The position numbers and the translations under genes are program-made. DNA of 64,000 nt from Phaeodactylibacter luteus (GTDB lineage Bacteria; Bacteroidota; Bacteroidia; Chitinophagales; Saprospiraceae): assembly GCF_007993045.1 (NCBI RefSeq), contig NZ_VOOR01000012.1, positions 62,001 to 126,000 on the forward strand. The letters are read 5' to 3'. The notes beneath the pieces are model-generated. The model did no database searches and had not been told where the DNA came from. It was given only the letters and a program-made list of their open reading frames with translations. Each line of letters starts with the position of its first letter. The first letter of the stretch is position 1. This document shows, one piece after another, positions 15,064 through 21,036 of the stretch.

Positions 15064-15293
15064 CGGGCGTGAACCCAAATGCCACAGATGTTTAGCAATG
15101 CTAAGCATAGCTGGCTCTAGGCTGGCATTGGCCTAGCGCTGCGCAGGGGTGGCCGAAGGCCAGACCCGACGCCTGCAGGGCGAGGGGCCGAGCGGATAGC
15201 GAGCCCCGGAGCATAGCGGCACCTGCCTGCTGGCAGGGGCAGGCCCCATACATGCAGCAGGGGCAGGCCCAAAAACGACAATCTGGTTTGTGC
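15064..15293 (+). repeat. Interspersed structured repeat, copy 1 (long form)
   Basis: This begins GGCGTGAACC..AATGCCACAG and contains the conserved core TGGCATTGGCCTAGCGCTGC, then GAGCGGATAGCGAGCCCC, AGCATAGCGGCACCTGCC and a GGCAGGGGCAGGCCCC end, followed by an ACGACAATCTGGTTTGTGC tail. It carries an extra insert (AGGCCAGACCCGACGCCTG) that copies 3 and 4 lack. Several parts can fold on themselves (GGGGC..GCCCC, CCTGCC..GGCAGG). It fills most of the 423-base spacer between fadJ and crtY; the remainder up to 15460 is an AT-rich stretch without a gene. Confidence 0.85.
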
Positions 15294-15463
15294 TTTTTTA
15301 GCCGGGTGTCTCTTCTGTTGTTTTTAGCGGCTTTCGCCGAACTTTTGAAATTTATTGCCTGGCTGAGCAAAAAAATATTTTGCAGCCTAAACCTTTTTCT
15401 TGTTTTGCTGTCTAGCTTTTGCAAGTTTTTCCTCTCTGTATTTCCAGACAGGTGCACTTGCCA

Positions 15464-15476
15464 ATGCATTAGTAAA
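15464..15476 (+). promoter_or_regulatory. Shared 13-base word, copy A, just upstream of crtY
   Basis: ATGCATTAGTAAA, here in the form AATGCATTAGTAAAACATGG, ends 2 bases before the crtY start codon. The same word recurs at 17859 and 18719. Three exact copies within 3.3 kb are very unlikely by chance, so a shared control site is proposed. Confidence 0.45.
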
Positions 15477-15478
15477 AC

Positions 15479-16696
15479 ATGGTTAGGGAATACGATATCA
15501 TCATCGCCGGTGCTGGTGCAGCGGGCTTGTCCTTAGCGTACCACTTGTCTCAAAGCTCCCTCTGCGAGCTGGATGTTCTGTTATTGGATGCCGATCCAAA
15601 AAATACCAATGACCGTACTTGGTGCTTTTGGTCAGAAGGGGCTCCCCCTTTCCCTGAGGCTGTTTTCCATACTTGGGAGAAGCTTTATTTTCAAGATGAG
15701 ACAGGCCGTTATGGAGGGCAACTGGGGCCTTTGAAGTATCATATGATCCGCGGGCTGGACTTTTACCGTCATGTGCGGAGTGCATTAGCGAGCAGGAGCA
15801 ATTTTGAATTCCGGCAAGAGCGGATAGAGAGCATAGATGAAAAGAGCGGCAGGGCTATTGTCAAAACACAGATAGGAGCATATTCAGGCCGTCATGTTTT
15901 TAATAGCTGCCCTTTGCCTGGCGCACTGCCCGCTCTGGGCAGGTATCAGCTGTTACAGCATTTTGCAGGCTGGTGGATAGAGTTGGGCAAGCCCGTGTTC
16001 AGCTCAGCAGAGGGCACACTTATGGACTTCCGTACGGCTCAGCCTGGAGACTGCCGTTTTTTTTATGTACTGCCGGTAAGCCCGTCGCGTGCGCTGGTTG
16101 AGTTCACTGTTTTCTCGCCCTCCCGTTTGGCTGCAGAGGCGTATCAGTCTGCATTGAAGGATTATATAGAAGGCCAGCTTGGGTTCAGCCAATATGAGGT
16201 CCTTGAAAAAGAGGAAGGGGCAATCCCTATGACAGATGCGGCCTTTAAAAACCGGCTGAGCCCTCGTGTGCATCAGATAGGTACGGTAGGGGGGGCGGTG
16301 AAGCCTACGACAGGCTATGCCTTCAGCCGCATTCAAGAACAAGCCCGGCAGGTGGTGGCCCAGCTGGAAGCCGGGCAAGCTCCGGATACCCGCCTGCCTT
16401 CACAAGCGCGCTTTGCATTTTATGATCAGCTGTTGCTCGATATTCTTGAGGTGGAAGGTTTCAGAGGGAAGGGGGTTTTCCACCGTTTGTTCCGCCACAA
16501 CCGCATCGGGAAAGTGCTGAAGTTCTTGTCGGAGCGCAGCAACCCGGTGGCAGAAGCCCGTATTTTTGCCACCCTGCCGGTGCCCCTATTCCTGAAGGCG
16601 CTGTTGCGCAACCTTCAGCTCAGGGCGGGCAGTTATGCTGCTGCCTACCCAAGCACGGCCGCTGCAGCCCCTGCAACGTTGACCCCAAAACAATAG
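15479..16696 (+). CDS. crtY: Lycopene beta-cyclase
   Basis: A 405-residue FAD/NAD(P)-dependent cyclase that converts lycopene to beta-carotene, the precursor of retinal. The N-terminal dinucleotide site is YDIIIAGAGAAGLSLAYHL (glycines at 11, 13 and 16), followed by LDADPKNTNDRTWCFW, a hallmark of the CrtY/CrtL family. Near residue 280 GGAVKPTTGYAFSRI completes the family signature. The C-terminus has a hydrophobic, Ala-rich end. It is followed 3 bases later by blh and then by the rhodopsin gene. Genes for lycopene synthesis (crtE, crtB, crtI) are not in the window. The start is fixed by the ATG that directly follows the shared 13-base word. Confidence 0.93.
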   Translation: MVREYDIIIAGAGAAGLSLAYHLSQSSLCELDVLLLDADPKNTNDRTWCFWSEGAPPFPEAVFHTWEKLYFQDETGRYGGQLGPLKYHMIRGLDFYRHVRSALASRSNFEFRQERIESIDEKSGRAIVKTQIGAYSGRHVFNSCPLPGALPALGRYQLLQHFAGWWIELGKPVFSSAEGTLMDFRTAQPGDCRFFYVLPVSPSRALVEFTVFSPSRLAAEAYQSALKDYIEGQLGFSQYEVLEKEEGAIPMTDAAFKNRLSPRVHQIGTVGGAVKPTTGYAFSRIQEQARQVVAQLEAGQAPDTRLPSQARFAFYDQLLLDILEVEGFRGKGVFHRLFRHNRIGKVLKFLSERSNPVAEARIFATLPVPLFLKALLRNLQLRAGSYAAAYPSTAAAAPATLTPKQ

Positions 16697-16699
16697 CTT

Positions 16700-17629
16700 A
16701 TGACAGCCAGGTACCCTTTGCTATACCGTTCGGTTCAAGGGCTGGGGCTATTGCTAGCCCTTTTCAGCTTTTTGGCTCCCGGCCTTTTGGCCCAAATGCA
16801 GTTTTGGGCTGCCCTAGGGCTGATTGTCCTTATTGGCATCCCCCATGGGGCTACAGACTACCTGATCTTTCAGCACTTGGCCCGCCCGCTGTGGGGGAAT
16901 GGCAGCATGTTGCAATTCTACGCTTGTTATTTGGCCATAATGGGGGGGTACGCCTTGGCTTGGTATCTGTTGCCGCAGCTGTCGTTGCTCTTTTTCCTCT
17001 TCATTTCTATGTACCATTTTGGGCAGTCCAATTGGAACTATGCAGACCTGGGCGCCGGCTGGAAGAACAGGGCCGCACACTTCATCTGGGGCGCTTTCGT
17101 ATTGTCCGCACCTATATTATGGCATTATGAGGCAGCCGTGCCGATTATAACGCACATCACGGGCGAGGCCCCGCCCGCTATGGCTGCCACATGGCGAAGG
17201 GCAGTGGTAGCTGCCTTGTTCATCATCAACCTCTGGGCCAGCCTCTATTACTTCTTGGAGGGGGCGATCAGCTGGCGCGACCTGCGCAATGAGGTGTTCA
17301 ATTTGATTGTGCTGGCCATCGTGCTCACACAGCTGCCTTTGCTTTTGGGGTTCGCGGTATACTTCGTAGGCTGGCACTCTCTGAGCTCAATGATGGACCA
17401 AATCCGCTTTTTCAGAGATGAGGACCGGCAGTATGGCTGGCGGCATTATTTCAGAAATGCGCTTCCGCTCACTGCGGTGGCTATCACGGGGTTGGCAGCC
17501 TTGGCCTGGCTGCAAAATGAGATGGCGCTCGCCATGAACATTGGGCTCGTTTTCGTATTCATCTCCGTGGTTACCTTGCCGCATATGTTGTTGATCGATC
17601 AGCTCTACAAAGCGCATGATTCGCCATGA
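16700..17629 (+). CDS. blh: Beta-carotene 15,15'-dioxygenase, Brp/Blh family
   Basis: A 309-residue multi-pass membrane enzyme that splits beta-carotene into two retinals. The four iron-binding histidines of the Brp/Blh family are visible: IPHG (His49), MYHFGQSNW (His106), VGWHSLSSM (His226) and TLPHMLL (His295). About eight hydrophobic helices are spread along the chain. The start is 3 bases after the crtY stop, so the two are translated as one operon. Together with the rhodopsin gene 225 bases downstream they form the usual retinal-supply module of marine phototrophic Bacteroidota. Confidence 0.94.
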   Translation: MTARYPLLYRSVQGLGLLLALFSFLAPGLLAQMQFWAALGLIVLIGIPHGATDYLIFQHLARPLWGNGSMLQFYACYLAIMGGYALAWYLLPQLSLLFFLFISMYHFGQSNWNYADLGAGWKNRAAHFIWGAFVLSAPILWHYEAAVPIITHITGEAPPAMAATWRRAVVAALFIINLWASLYYFLEGAISWRDLRNEVFNLIVLAIVLTQLPLLLGFAVYFVGWHSLSSMMDQIRFFRDEDRQYGWRHYFRNALPLTAVAITGLAALAWLQNEMALAMNIGLVFVFISVVTLPHMLLIDQLYKAHDSP

Positions 17630-17720
17630 TATTTAGACTTGGTGCGCGGGGGCATTTCGGAGTCAGAAGGGCTATTTCCTGCCCACTGCACTGGCCCGGC
17701 GCATCAAGGCCATTGGAATG

Positions 17721-17783
17721 AAATTTCAATAATCTGCTGTACGCTTCTTATAATTTCCGTAGGTACAAAAATTATTGAAATTT
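17721..17783 (+). promoter_or_regulatory. Perfect 13-base inverted repeat upstream of the rhodopsin gene
   Basis: AAATTTCAATAAT at 17721-17733 is the exact reverse complement of ATTATTGAAATTT at 17771-17783, with 37 bases between. The right arm ends 72 bases before the rhodopsin start. The spacer contains TATAATTTCC. It is AT-rich and not followed by a T run, so a paired operator is more likely than a terminator. Confidence 0.5.
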
Positions 17784-17820
17784 TATAAACCATTTTTGAG
17801 AGGGCCTGTTTCCTTCTCGT

Positions 17821-17839
17821 CGTTAACAGTTCTTTAACG
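17821..17839 (+). promoter_or_regulatory. Second, short inverted repeat at the rhodopsin leader
   Basis: CGTTAA at 17821-17826 and TTAACG at 17834-17839 form a palindrome with a 7-base centre, 15 bases upstream of the rhodopsin ATG. It lies where a repressor or a translational control hairpin could act. Confidence 0.35.
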
Positions 17840-17854
17840 GAAAACACTTTTATC

Positions 17855-18640
17855 ATGGATGCATTAGTAAACAATTTTCAACCTTTGCTGCTTGCGCAGC
17901 TCAAGTCCGGTGACTACGTAGGGTTCACCTTCTTCATCGGCTCTATGGCTATGGCAGCTGCCACAGTCTTCTTTTTCTTCCAGTTCAGCCAAGTGAAGGG
18001 CAAATGGAAGGATTCTATGCTGGTCTCAGGGCTGATCACTTTCATCGCTGCGGTCCATTACTTCTACATGCGGGATTTCTGGGCAACCAACCAAGCTTCC
18101 CCTACGGAGTTCCGCTACATTGACTGGATCCTCACCGTGCCCCTGATGTGCGTTGAGTTTTACCTCATCCTGCGTGCGTTTGGCGCTAAGGTAGGCCTGC
18201 TGTGGAAAATGATCTTCTACTCTGTAGTGATGCTTGTAGCGGGCTACTTGGGCGAGACGGTCTTCCGCGATGCTTCTCCACTTTGGGGCTTTATTTCCAC
18301 CATTGGGTACGCTGGTATCCTGTATGAAGTATGGATGGGCTCGGCAAAGCGTTTGTCCAACAACTCAAACGATCCGATCCTGCAGAAAGGCTTCAATGCA
18401 CTGGCGTGGTTCGTATTTGCTGGCTGGGCGATTTACCCAATCGGCTACATGACCATCGAAACGGGCTGGCTCGCTGGATTGATCCCGGCAGAATCTATGG
18501 ATATCATCTACAACATTGGGGATGCTGTCAATAAGATTGGCTTTGGTCTGGTGATCTACTCGCTTGCAGTCTCCAAGTCTGCACAGGGAGCCGAGCAGCA
18601 CGTAGAAGCTGGCGCGGGCAAAGCGACAACCAACGCATAA
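17855..18640 (+). CDS. Proteorhodopsin, green-type DTE proton pump
   Basis: A 261-residue seven-helix retinal protein that should pump protons outward in light. By comparison with the well-studied proteorhodopsin, RYIDWILTVPLMCVE gives Asp90 (acceptor, D97), Thr94 (T101) and Glu101 (donor, E108), the DTE motif. The colour-tuning position (105) is Met98, which points to green absorption. His68 in AAVHYFYMR corresponds to H75. Lys227 in GDAVNKIGFG is the retinal Schiff-base lysine. A Gly in PLWGFISTIG of helix 5 could form the carotenoid-antenna opening described for related pumps, to be tested by alignment. It follows crtY-blh with a separate leader that carries inverted repeats. Confidence 0.95.
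   Translation: MDALVNNFQPLLLAQLKSGDYVGFTFFIGSMAMAAATVFFFFQFSQVKGKWKDSMLVSGLITFIAAVHYFYMRDFWATNQASPTEFRYIDWILTVPLMCVEFYLILRAFGAKVGLLWKMIFYSVVMLVAGYLGETVFRDASPLWGFISTIGYAGILYEVWMGSAKRLSNNSNDPILQKGFNALAWFVFAGWAIYPIGYMTIETGWLAGLIPAESMDIIYNIGDAVNKIGFGLVIYSLAVSKSAQGAEQHVEAGAGKATTNA
17859..17872 (+). promoter_or_regulatory. Shared 13-base word, copy B, inside the first rhodopsin codons
   Basis: ATGCATTAGTAAAC overlaps codons 2 to 6 of the rhodopsin gene (Asp-Ala-Leu-Val-Asn). It is identical over 14 bases to copy C, which lies after the gene, so the rhodopsin reading frame is flanked by direct repeats. Confidence 0.4.
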
Positions 18641-18663
18641 AAAACAAAGCAAGGTCCTCCCTT

Positions 18664-18671
18664 TACTTTTG
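18664..18671 (+). promoter_or_regulatory. Possible -7 box (TACTTTTG) between rhodopsin and the next gene
   Basis: TACTTTTG matches TAnnTTTG and would give a transcript that begins near 18678, upstream of the unknown gene at 18947. No TTG is seen at the expected spacing. The 306-base spacer after the rhodopsin gene also holds copy C of the shared word and no convincing open frame; an ATG at 18675 reads only eight codons. Confidence 0.3.
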
Positions 18672-18718
18672 CACATGAAAAAAACCTGCACCCACCAATA
18701 GGCAGGCACAGGTCGACA

Positions 18719-18732
18719 ATGCATTAGTAAAC
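18719..18732 (+). promoter_or_regulatory. Shared 13-base word, copy C, between rhodopsin and the downstream genes
   Basis: ATGCATTAGTAAAC, here AATGCATTAGTAAACTATT, lies 215 bases before the start of the 250-residue unknown gene. Both copies A and C are preceded by an ACAGGT 8-14 bases upstream. Confidence 0.4.
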
Positions 18733-18946
18733 TATTCCTGCAAAGTTAAGGGATTTACTTGTTAATAGGGTGTTAAAGCCAAAAAACTACCGGCAGTACT
18801 GCACAATCGCGCAGTGCTGCCGGTTTCGTTTACTACCTGCTGTTGCCCCTCATCCGCTGAACTTTTTCTGCCTTCCTGCCTTTAAAAACCACCATCTGCC
18901 AAGGCCAACCCTGGCAGGTTCTCAGAAAAAAATCAAAGCAAACCCA

Positions 18947-19767: not shown

Positions 19768-21036
19768 ATGAAAAGTGTCATCACCTGTGATATGGAAGGC
19801 CGGATCGAAACCTTCAGCAAAGGAGCAGAAGAACTGTTTGGGTACTCGGCCGAAGAAGTAGTAGGGAAAGAGCGGGTTTCTGTTTTTTCCCCTGGGGAGA
19901 TCGTACTGCAGAACGTGCCCGTCTGGCTGGATACGGCTAGCCGGGAAGGCAAGTACGAAGGCGAGACCCGGTTTTTACGGAAAGACGGCTCCCCATTCAG
20001 CGCCCGCATACGGATTACGCCGACTTTTGCCAATGGCAAGGCGAATGGGCAGACCGGCTATTGCGGTGTGACAGAAGCTGTAGCCGAAGAAGTCGACCCG
20101 CCCATACGTTGGACAACCAAGCTGGTCAAAGCCTTGGCCATTACCCGGATGCCATTCCTTTCGGCTGTACTGATGCCCGCCTTCATCGGAGGGGCGTTTG
20201 CTTATCATTATGTTCTGGACAACCCTGGCACGGCTTTCAGCTGGGGGCTGTTTTTGTGGGCCGTGCTCGGCGTAGCGCTGCTGCACTTGGGCAGCAACGT
20301 CATGAATGATTATTTCGATGTAAAAGACGGGACAGACGGCGCCAACAACAATTACTTCCTACAATTTTCAGGCGGCAGCCGTGCCATTGAATTGGGGCTC
20401 ATTACCTTAGGGCAGACTAAAAAGCTTGGGCTGCTCCTCCTTGCTGCTTCGGGCCTCATCGGCGCCTATCTGGCATGGGCAACGGGCTGGCCTGCATTGA
20501 TGATAGGATTGGCAGGCTTAGCTATAGGGTATCTGTACACCGCTCCGCCTGTAAGGCTGGTTGCGCGCCGCGGGCTTGGCGAGCTGGGCATTGCGCTTGC
20601 GTTCGGGCCATTGGTCACGTTAGGCATTGTATATGTGGCCACCCTACAGTTGGTGCCAATGGCTTTTTGGATAGGCTTGCCAGCTGGGCTGCTGACTGCC
20701 AATATTTTGCTGATCAATGAATTCCCGGATGCAGAGTCTGATGCCCTTACGGGGAAAAACCACTTGGTCGTTACTTTTGGCAAGGAAAAAAGCACCTACA
20801 TCTATTTGGGCATACTTTTAGCGGCAGCTGGGCTCACGCTGGGTTTGTCCTTCGCCCTGCCTGGGGGCAACCTATGGCTTGCACTGGTAGCTGTCCTGAT
20901 ACTGGCATCGGGCTTGGCTATTTTCCGGCATATCCGCATGCATTATGAGGACCGTTCTCTGGTCTTATCCAATAAAAGGACAATAGCGCTGAGCGCATTG
21001 GGCGGGCTGTTTACAGCCATAGCGCTTATACTCTGA
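19768..21036 (+). CDS. PAS domain fused to UbiA-family prenyltransferase (MenA-like)
   Basis: A 422-residue fusion. Residues about 1-108 are a PAS sensor domain: ITCDMEGRIETFSKGAEELF, GYSAEEVVGK, RFLRKDGSPF and a final YCGVTE. No LOV cysteine motif is present. Residues about 120-422 are a UbiA-type integral-membrane prenyltransferase with both Asp-rich sites: NDYFDVKDGTD (180-190) and NEFPDAESD (317-325). The block FSGGSRAIELGLIT is that of the 1,4-dihydroxy-2-naphthoate prenyltransferase (MenA, COG1575) group. MenA proteins normally lack PAS. A lycopene-elongase-like or other role is possible. The ATG at 19768 was chosen because a longer frame overlaps the previous gene. A terminator follows. 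Confidence 0.85.
   Translation: MKSVITCDMEGRIETFSKGAEELFGYSAEEVVGKERVSVFSPGEIVLQNVPVWLDTASREGKYEGETRFLRKDGSPFSARIRITPTFANGKANGQTGYCGVTEAVAEEVDPPIRWTTKLVKALAITRMPFLSAVLMPAFIGGAFAYHYVLDNPGTAFSWGLFLWAVLGVALLHLGSNVMNDYFDVKDGTDGANNNYFLQFSGGSRAIELGLITLGQTKKLGLLLLAASGLIGAYLAWATGWPALMIGLAGLAIGYLYTAPPVRLVARRGLGELGIALAFGPLVTLGIVYVATLQLVPMAFWIGLPAGLLTANILLINEFPDAESDALTGKNHLVVTFGKEKSTYIYLGILLAAAGLTLGLSFALPGGNLWLALVAVLILASGLAIFRHIRMHYEDRSLVLSNKRTIALSALGGLFTAIALIL

Follow-up and report, generated by a model that had tools for sequence, protein, structure and literature searches.

In Phaeodactylibacter luteus (Saprospiraceae; assembly GCF_007993045.1), the genes for lycopene cyclase (crtY), beta-carotene dioxygenase (blh) and a rhodopsin lie close together in a stretch of 64,000 nucleotides that we analysed as a whole (contig NZ_VOOR01000012.1, positions 62,001 to 126,000, hereafter the window). 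A word of 13 bases, ATGCATTAGTAAA, occurs there exactly three times on the plus strand, at 15464-15476, 17859-17871 and 18719-18731. We consider it very probable that the minus strand from 18736 to 18678 encodes a small trans-acting RNA (sRNA), convergent to the rhodopsin gene, which would pair through its seed with the crtY and rhodopsin mRNAs. The three copies of the word would then not be equivalent, one being the seed of the sRNA on the minus strand and the other two its complementary target sites. Support at the level of sequence comes from a promoter box, the seed, a terminator, the complementarity, conservation and the coordinated change of seed and targets. The features concerned are as follows.

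18678..18736, minus strand: proposed sRNA gene of about 59 nt, 5′-AAUAGUUUACUAAUGCAUUGUCGACCUGUGCC...GGUUUUUUU (start placed by means of the promoter box; fold; covariance model)
18741..18748, minus strand: putative promoter -7 box TAACTTTG (match to the Bacteroidota consensus TAnnTTTG)
18719..18732, minus strand: putative seed, nucleotides 5-18 of the sRNA, GUUUACUAAUGCAU (unpaired in the predicted fold; invariant core)
18683..18714, minus strand: predicted intrinsic terminator hairpin of 14 pairs, running into seven T at 18684-18678 (terminator scan and fold)
15462..15476, plus strand: candidate target site in the leader of crtY, from 17 to 3 nt upstream of the start codon (duplex of 15 uninterrupted pairs, -21.0 kcal/mol)
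17859..17872, plus strand: candidate target site within codons 2-6 of rhodopsin (duplex of 14 uninterrupted pairs, -21.1 kcal/mol; synonymous invariance)

A putative small RNA gene convergent to rhodopsin

Seen from the minus strand, copy 3 of the word is located between a TAnnTTTG box (18748-18741) and the 14-pair hairpin. Because this box spans positions -12 to -5 in Flavobacterium psychrophilum, according to PMC9723704, the +1 of the sRNA should fall at 18736, which gives a length of about 59 nt. In the predicted fold the first ~20 nt, including the seed, are unpaired and the remainder forms the terminator, with an energy of -23.2 kcal/mol for 56 nt and a z of -5.4 against mononucleotide shuffles. 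A covariance model built from 8 loci matches the window sRNA with an E of 1.8e-11, the window being itself one of these 8 sequences. The evidence for a promoter consists in the match to the consensus: among the 53 distinct 5′ regions of all sRNA loci fetched by that stage, 41 have the box with at most one mismatch (20 of them exactly) compared to 365 of 5000 random positions, and in 39 of the 41 it lies 7-8 nt from the seed. An own housekeeping-type promoter, an intrinsic terminator and a conserved single-stranded 5′ seed, all found here, are features of sRNAs of the GibS type, as is complementarity to the start regions of several mRNAs, here those for crtY, rhodopsin, a 66-aa protein and fasciclins. 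The T run is weak in loci L051 and L109, and the seed is partly paired in the predicted folds of L050, L051 and L088. Rfam 15 gave no match above the gathering threshold in the window, and its sole match between 18600 and 18850 was at chance level (16.1 bits for a threshold of 76). The sRNA would be an undescribed small RNA family of an already known kind. The alternative that the conserved product is a peptide was rejected, the chance open reading frame (ORF) that starts from the seed in the window (18724) not being kept in relatives; in L049 it meets a stop after three codons.

Predicted pairing with the crtY and rhodopsin messages

The predicted duplex between each sRNA and its cognate rhodopsin message reaches -13.0 to -25.5 kcal/mol in all 17 loci with a rhodopsin start, and that with the cognate crtY leader or start region -13.5 to -25.5 kcal/mol in 14/14 loci that have a linked sRNA and an available crtY start. 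Random 50-mers of the window, used as a control, have a mean of -9.4, and 70 of the 3000 reach -15 or lower. Combined with the sRNA of the window, the rhodopsin starts of 18 loci where no sRNA was seen gave -3.1 to -13.0. The crtY start apparently is a TTG or GTG directly after the sRNA site in L051, L054, L055, L061, L085, L109, L110 and L081, the positions of such starts in relatives having been inferred.

Conservation and coordinated change of seed and targets

We named 80 rhodopsin loci and scanned 54 for the word; 29 of these, together with the window, were scanned for a downstream minus-strand terminator. The unit of seed plus hairpin was present downstream of rhodopsin in 16 of these 30 loci, which represent several Saprospiraceae genera. 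All 16 linked sRNAs fold as a 5′ tail followed by a hairpin (z of -2.6 to -6.7 against mononucleotide shuffles); their hairpin sequences are strongly divergent, and a seed core of 10-11 bases is invariant across 14-15 aligned loci. On the side of the target, codons 3 (GCA in 15/15) and 4 (TTA in 16/16) are the only invariant ones among 95 conserved degenerate codons of 16 rhodopsins; at codon 5, GTA is used by 14 of 15. TTA accounts for 34 of the 398 leucine codons in the rhodopsins compared; that of the window uses it once among 24 leucines, namely at codon 4.

Seed and targets also change together. In L093/L094 the complement of the sRNA reads AATTGCATTAGTAATAAA, the rhodopsin site (L094) ATGCATTAGTAATAAA and the crtY site AATTGCATTAGTAA, so that the seed and both targets depart from the usual form in step while pairing is kept. 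The L054 rhodopsin and the L110 crtY differ from the usual site at core positions, with G-U pairs kept. Minus-strand matches to GCATTATTAAAC upstream of crtY in L070-L079 were considered as a second sRNA and rejected, as they apparently belong to the coding tail of the preceding gene.

Cognate pairs also do better than permuted ones: permuted assignments of sRNAs to targets gave an equally good mean in 3 of 20000 cases for rhodopsin and 4 of 20000 for crtY, counts that take no account of shared ancestry.

A number of observations weigh against an sRNA that controls both messages. Cognate pairing is weaker than the non-cognate mean for 2/17 rhodopsin and 2/14 crtY targets, most clearly for the L054 crtY. 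The GCA TTA codons are present in seven rhodopsin loci with no sRNA seen nearby (L065, L070, L073-L075, L077 and L079), and their constancy may therefore be partly inherited or a result of AT-rich codon use. L081 has kept both target sites and has no recognisable linked sRNA. Proteorhodopsins of Neolewinella/Lewinella are without a site although the genomes carry the sRNA (4 checked, -3.1 to -7.5), lycopene cyclases outside rhodopsin cassettes have one in 1 of 18 loci (by script), and 3 of 11 orthologues of the gene for the 66-aa protein lack it.

The word and alternative explanations for its copies

Pattern search and coordinates bear out what an earlier note on this DNA had said of the word itself: there are three exact copies, starting at 15464, 17859 and 18719, the first ending two bases upstream of the crtY ATG (15479), the second spanning rhodopsin codons 2-6 (ATG at 17855), and the last two sharing 14 bases. 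Copies 1 and 3 have 15 bases in common (CAATGCATTAGTAAA). With up to two mismatches the window contains 4 matches; 100 dinucleotide-shuffled sequences average 1.12, and 3 of them reached 4. The note had named a scatter of many copies over the genome, or absence from the same positions in close relatives, as grounds against its reading. Neither was found: the word is present at the same positions in relatives, and the 3 exact copies in the whole genome (6,011,527 bases, 301 contigs) all lie at this locus, inside 3.3 kb, with 3 additional one-mismatch copies elsewhere. Since a control with the pattern written backwards gave 4 genomic matches at 0-1 mismatch, the exact copies are exceptional and the one-mismatch copies are not; the remaining one-mismatch sites are mostly within, or antisense to, open frames. 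Four 12-mer sites were noticed at other places in the genus (L131, L132, L143 and L144).

Copy 3 had also been proposed as a possible site of the genes downstream. It ends 215 bases upstream of the next plus-strand gene (18947), a distance too large for a leader site, and belongs to the minus-strand transcription unit. The idea of one shared regulator survives in so far as a single link joins crtY-blh and rhodopsin; this link would be an RNA and not a DNA-binding protein, and the downstream genes are not part of it. A DNA operator for a transcription factor common to crtY-blh, rhodopsin and a third promoter would be in keeping with three exact copies in one phototrophy locus, a palindromic core (ATGCAT) and the preservation of the sites in relatives. 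It nevertheless appears very unlikely, as the conserved part, GCATTAGTAAAC, is asymmetric, shows no dyad symmetry and is found in sense orientation in all targets, while its position relative to promoters is inconsistent (coding bases in rhodopsin, the leader by the start codon in crtY, the 5′ end of the minus-strand unit). An operator would also leave unexplained why copy 3 is accompanied by a promoter box and followed by a hairpin and T run, and why G-U pairs are preserved in the L054 rhodopsin and L110 crtY. The other proposal of the note, that the words are direct repeats left by recombinational insertion of a crtY-blh-rhodopsin cassette, draws some strength from the fact that the cassette is flanked by copies 1 and 3 and does look inserted: g91 genomes have the order thiolase, FadJ/FadB-like protein (HADH) and sRNA, and G106 and G261 the neighbourhood of G304, both without the cassette. 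As the origin of the words we find it extremely improbable. Copy 2 lies inside rhodopsin, and the right-hand copy has a complete hairpin and promoter box where the left one has neither. Moreover, the sites look selected, being under synonymous constraint, similar ones occur at unlinked genes, and it is partly seen already that pairing between seed and target survives further divergence.

A minus-strand RNA could finally be real and act mainly in cis, either antisense to the 3′ end of rhodopsin or bound by a sponge that lies in the 3′ untranslated region (UTR) of that gene. The sRNA is indeed convergent with rhodopsin in the linked loci, and plus-strand terminators beyond it were detected by a strict scan in 4 of 16 loci and possibly exist in the window:

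18789..18824, plus strand: possible rhodopsin terminator beyond the sRNA promoter (weak tail TTCGTTT; not found by the stricter scan)

If this terminator is used, the rhodopsin 3′ UTR could be antisense to the entire sRNA. In 3 of the 16 loci, however, the rhodopsin terminator precedes the sRNA, and with terminators on either side read-through across the sRNA gene is not general. Since the sRNA is also away from rhodopsin in many genomes and conservation resides in the 5′ seed, we attach little probability to a mainly cis-acting RNA.

Proposed mechanism and comparison with known sRNAs

According to the trans-acting model, the unpaired 5′ seed GUUUACUAAUGCAU would pair with the crtY mRNA where its translation starts, and with the opening codons of the rhodopsin mRNA, and thereby block ribosome entry on both. 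Synthesis of opsin and of retinal would drop together, blh falling with crtY through their probable common operon. Shine-Dalgarno pairing is rare in Bacteroidota according to PMC6847099, and for this reason coverage of the start region would itself matter. We infer that the sRNA is transcribed, represses rather than activates, acts without Hfq and is controlled by light or the energy state. Hfq was found in 0/7 genomes, including that of the window, by a search that was positive in 5/14 control genomes.

The block of ribosome entry is modelled on GibS of Bacteroides thetaiotaomicron, which would be its analogue in acting at start-codon regions without Hfq. According to PMC7366714, GibS is likewise a Bacteroidota sRNA in a species with no obvious Hfq, with a conserved unpaired 5′ seed and a terminator structure; it pairs over the start codons of its targets, as proposed here, represses them, and has one target operon adjoining its own gene. 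The likeness drawn here is one of features. GibS differs in its length (~145 nt as against ~59 nt) and its metabolic targets. The sRNAs PcrZ, PcrX and asPcrL of Rhodobacter sphaeroides adjust phototrophy genes post-transcriptionally, as we propose here, but these are genes of bacteriochlorophyll-based photosynthesis in a proteobacterium, the function of PcrX is affected by Hfq, and the accessible text of PMC8307010 names no rhodopsin target for any of the three. Rfp18 of F. psychrophilum, as described in PMC9723704, resembles the present proposal as a conserved Bacteroidota sRNA with several mRNA targets and differs in its predicted pairing via the third stem-loop and in its protease targets.

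Searches of the available literature on sRNAs, rhodopsin, carotenoid genes and Lewinella yielded no account of such an RNA. No small RNA with a link to rhodopsin phototrophy is known to us, nor are crtY and rhodopsin as a pair under sRNA control, and to our knowledge it is largely open by what means bacteria adjust opsin and its retinal chromophore to each other. If the model holds, these marine bacteria could keep opsin, the protein of a light-driven pump, and its pigment retinal in step by simple means, through one RNA of ~59 nt that binds the messages for both. The model would also provide an Hfq-less lineage with a compact sRNA regulon, in which a single seed serves defined targets and compensatory variants occur naturally in different genera.

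Distribution in Saprospiraceae and possible recruitment of rhodopsin cassettes

At E ≤ 0.05 the covariance model found matches in 47 of the 398 family genomes. On reading, 40 of these are true, with seed, hairpin and T run; four matches look false on inspection (G126, G377, G429 and G406) and G343, G409 and G413 were left out of the reading, which makes 40 out of 398 a lower bound for the Saprospiraceae genomes with the sRNA. No rhodopsin match was detected in 16 of the 40, rhodopsin being detected in 98 of the 398. At the level of the order, 21 of 396 genomes matched at E ≤ 0.01, of which 20 belong to Saprospiraceae; the sole match outside the family, G535, has no seed and was discarded.

The neighbourhoods of the sRNA gene vary among genomes. 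In g91 genomes it follows the same two genes, thiolase and HADH, that lie ahead of crtY in the window, with no rhodopsin cassette in between, and in g7 and g95 its neighbours are unrelated genes, for the most part of envelope type. G304 (g95) has, next to the sRNA, a distant crtY-blh-rhodopsin cassette (59% identity), in a neighbourhood that G106 and G261 share without the cassette. This independent cassette of another genus has both target sites at corresponding places: TGCATTAGTAAA stands 11 nt upstream of the TTG start of crtY, and the rhodopsin begins ATGGGTGCATTAG. In G198 the cassette and an intact sRNA are on separate contigs, and crtY has the site. The simplest reading is that the sRNA was there first and that rhodopsin cassettes have been recruited to it on two or more occasions. 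The broader proposal, of an Hfq-independent, Saprospiraceae-wide sRNA with a nearly fixed 14-nt seed and a regulon of light-related and surface genes, under whose control cassettes that settled at least twice came by acquiring seed-complementary start regions, has in our estimation an even chance of being correct; the sRNA would in that case be the first RNA regulator of rhodopsin-based phototrophy. G198 has in addition a degenerate second copy of seed and hairpin behind rhodopsin (C50, L338 4945), with neither T run nor promoter box.

Further candidate targets

Matches at start sites are found as well ahead of a conserved 66-aa protein and of proteins of the fasciclin type, and the same sRNA family therefore probably has a wider role in Saprospiraceae. 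The site is in the leader in 8 of the 11 orthologues of the 66-aa gene examined, across g1, g21, g7 and g95; domain searches gave no family match for the protein. Fasciclin-type proteins with near-start sites occur in G236, G317, G361 and G099, with two more in G001. Most of thirty fasciclin loci, several of which are parts of one gene, have no site within one mismatch, and neither have three fasciclin genes inspected in the genome of the window. Single cases of a start-site match were a PPOX-like protein (G099), a radical-SAM DNA repair protein (G417), a DUF4397 protein (G106) and, in G236, a protein that we take to be thioesterase-like. In a divergent rhodopsin of Lewinella sp. W8 (G317, C88, L294 1200; PF01036, E 6e-46) an exact site stands 12 nt upstream of the ATG. 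Seven further divergent-rhodopsin loci showed no strong site at the first start, and the divergent rhodopsin is thus not a conserved target; three more loci, L351-L353, yielded no rhodopsin frame. The divergent rhodopsin gene of G317 lies near the 66-aa target gene.

Genes of the locus

The gene order around the locus is thiolase, HADH, crtY, blh, rhodopsin, a 250-aa protein without a Pfam match and a PAS-UbiA protein. As blh starts 4 nt downstream of the crtY stop, the two genes probably form one operon.

15479..16696, plus strand: crtY, lycopene cyclase (Pfam PF05834, E 1.5e-60)
16700..17629, plus strand: blh, beta-carotene dioxygenase, which makes retinal (TIGR03753 above cut-off; PF15461)
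17855..18640, plus strand: rhodopsin, a bacteriorhodopsin-like protein (PF01036, E 1.2e-41)

About 18-19 bases, AAACGACAATCTGGTTTG, in the GC-rich stretch before crtY (~15265-15290) recur before another gene of the same genome (L246, ~1460-1490) and are perhaps a dispersed repeat. The second gene downstream of rhodopsin (19768-21036, plus strand) joins in a single frame a PAS domain (PF13426), at the N-terminus, to a UbiA prenyltransferase (PF01040), a fusion that we had not met before.

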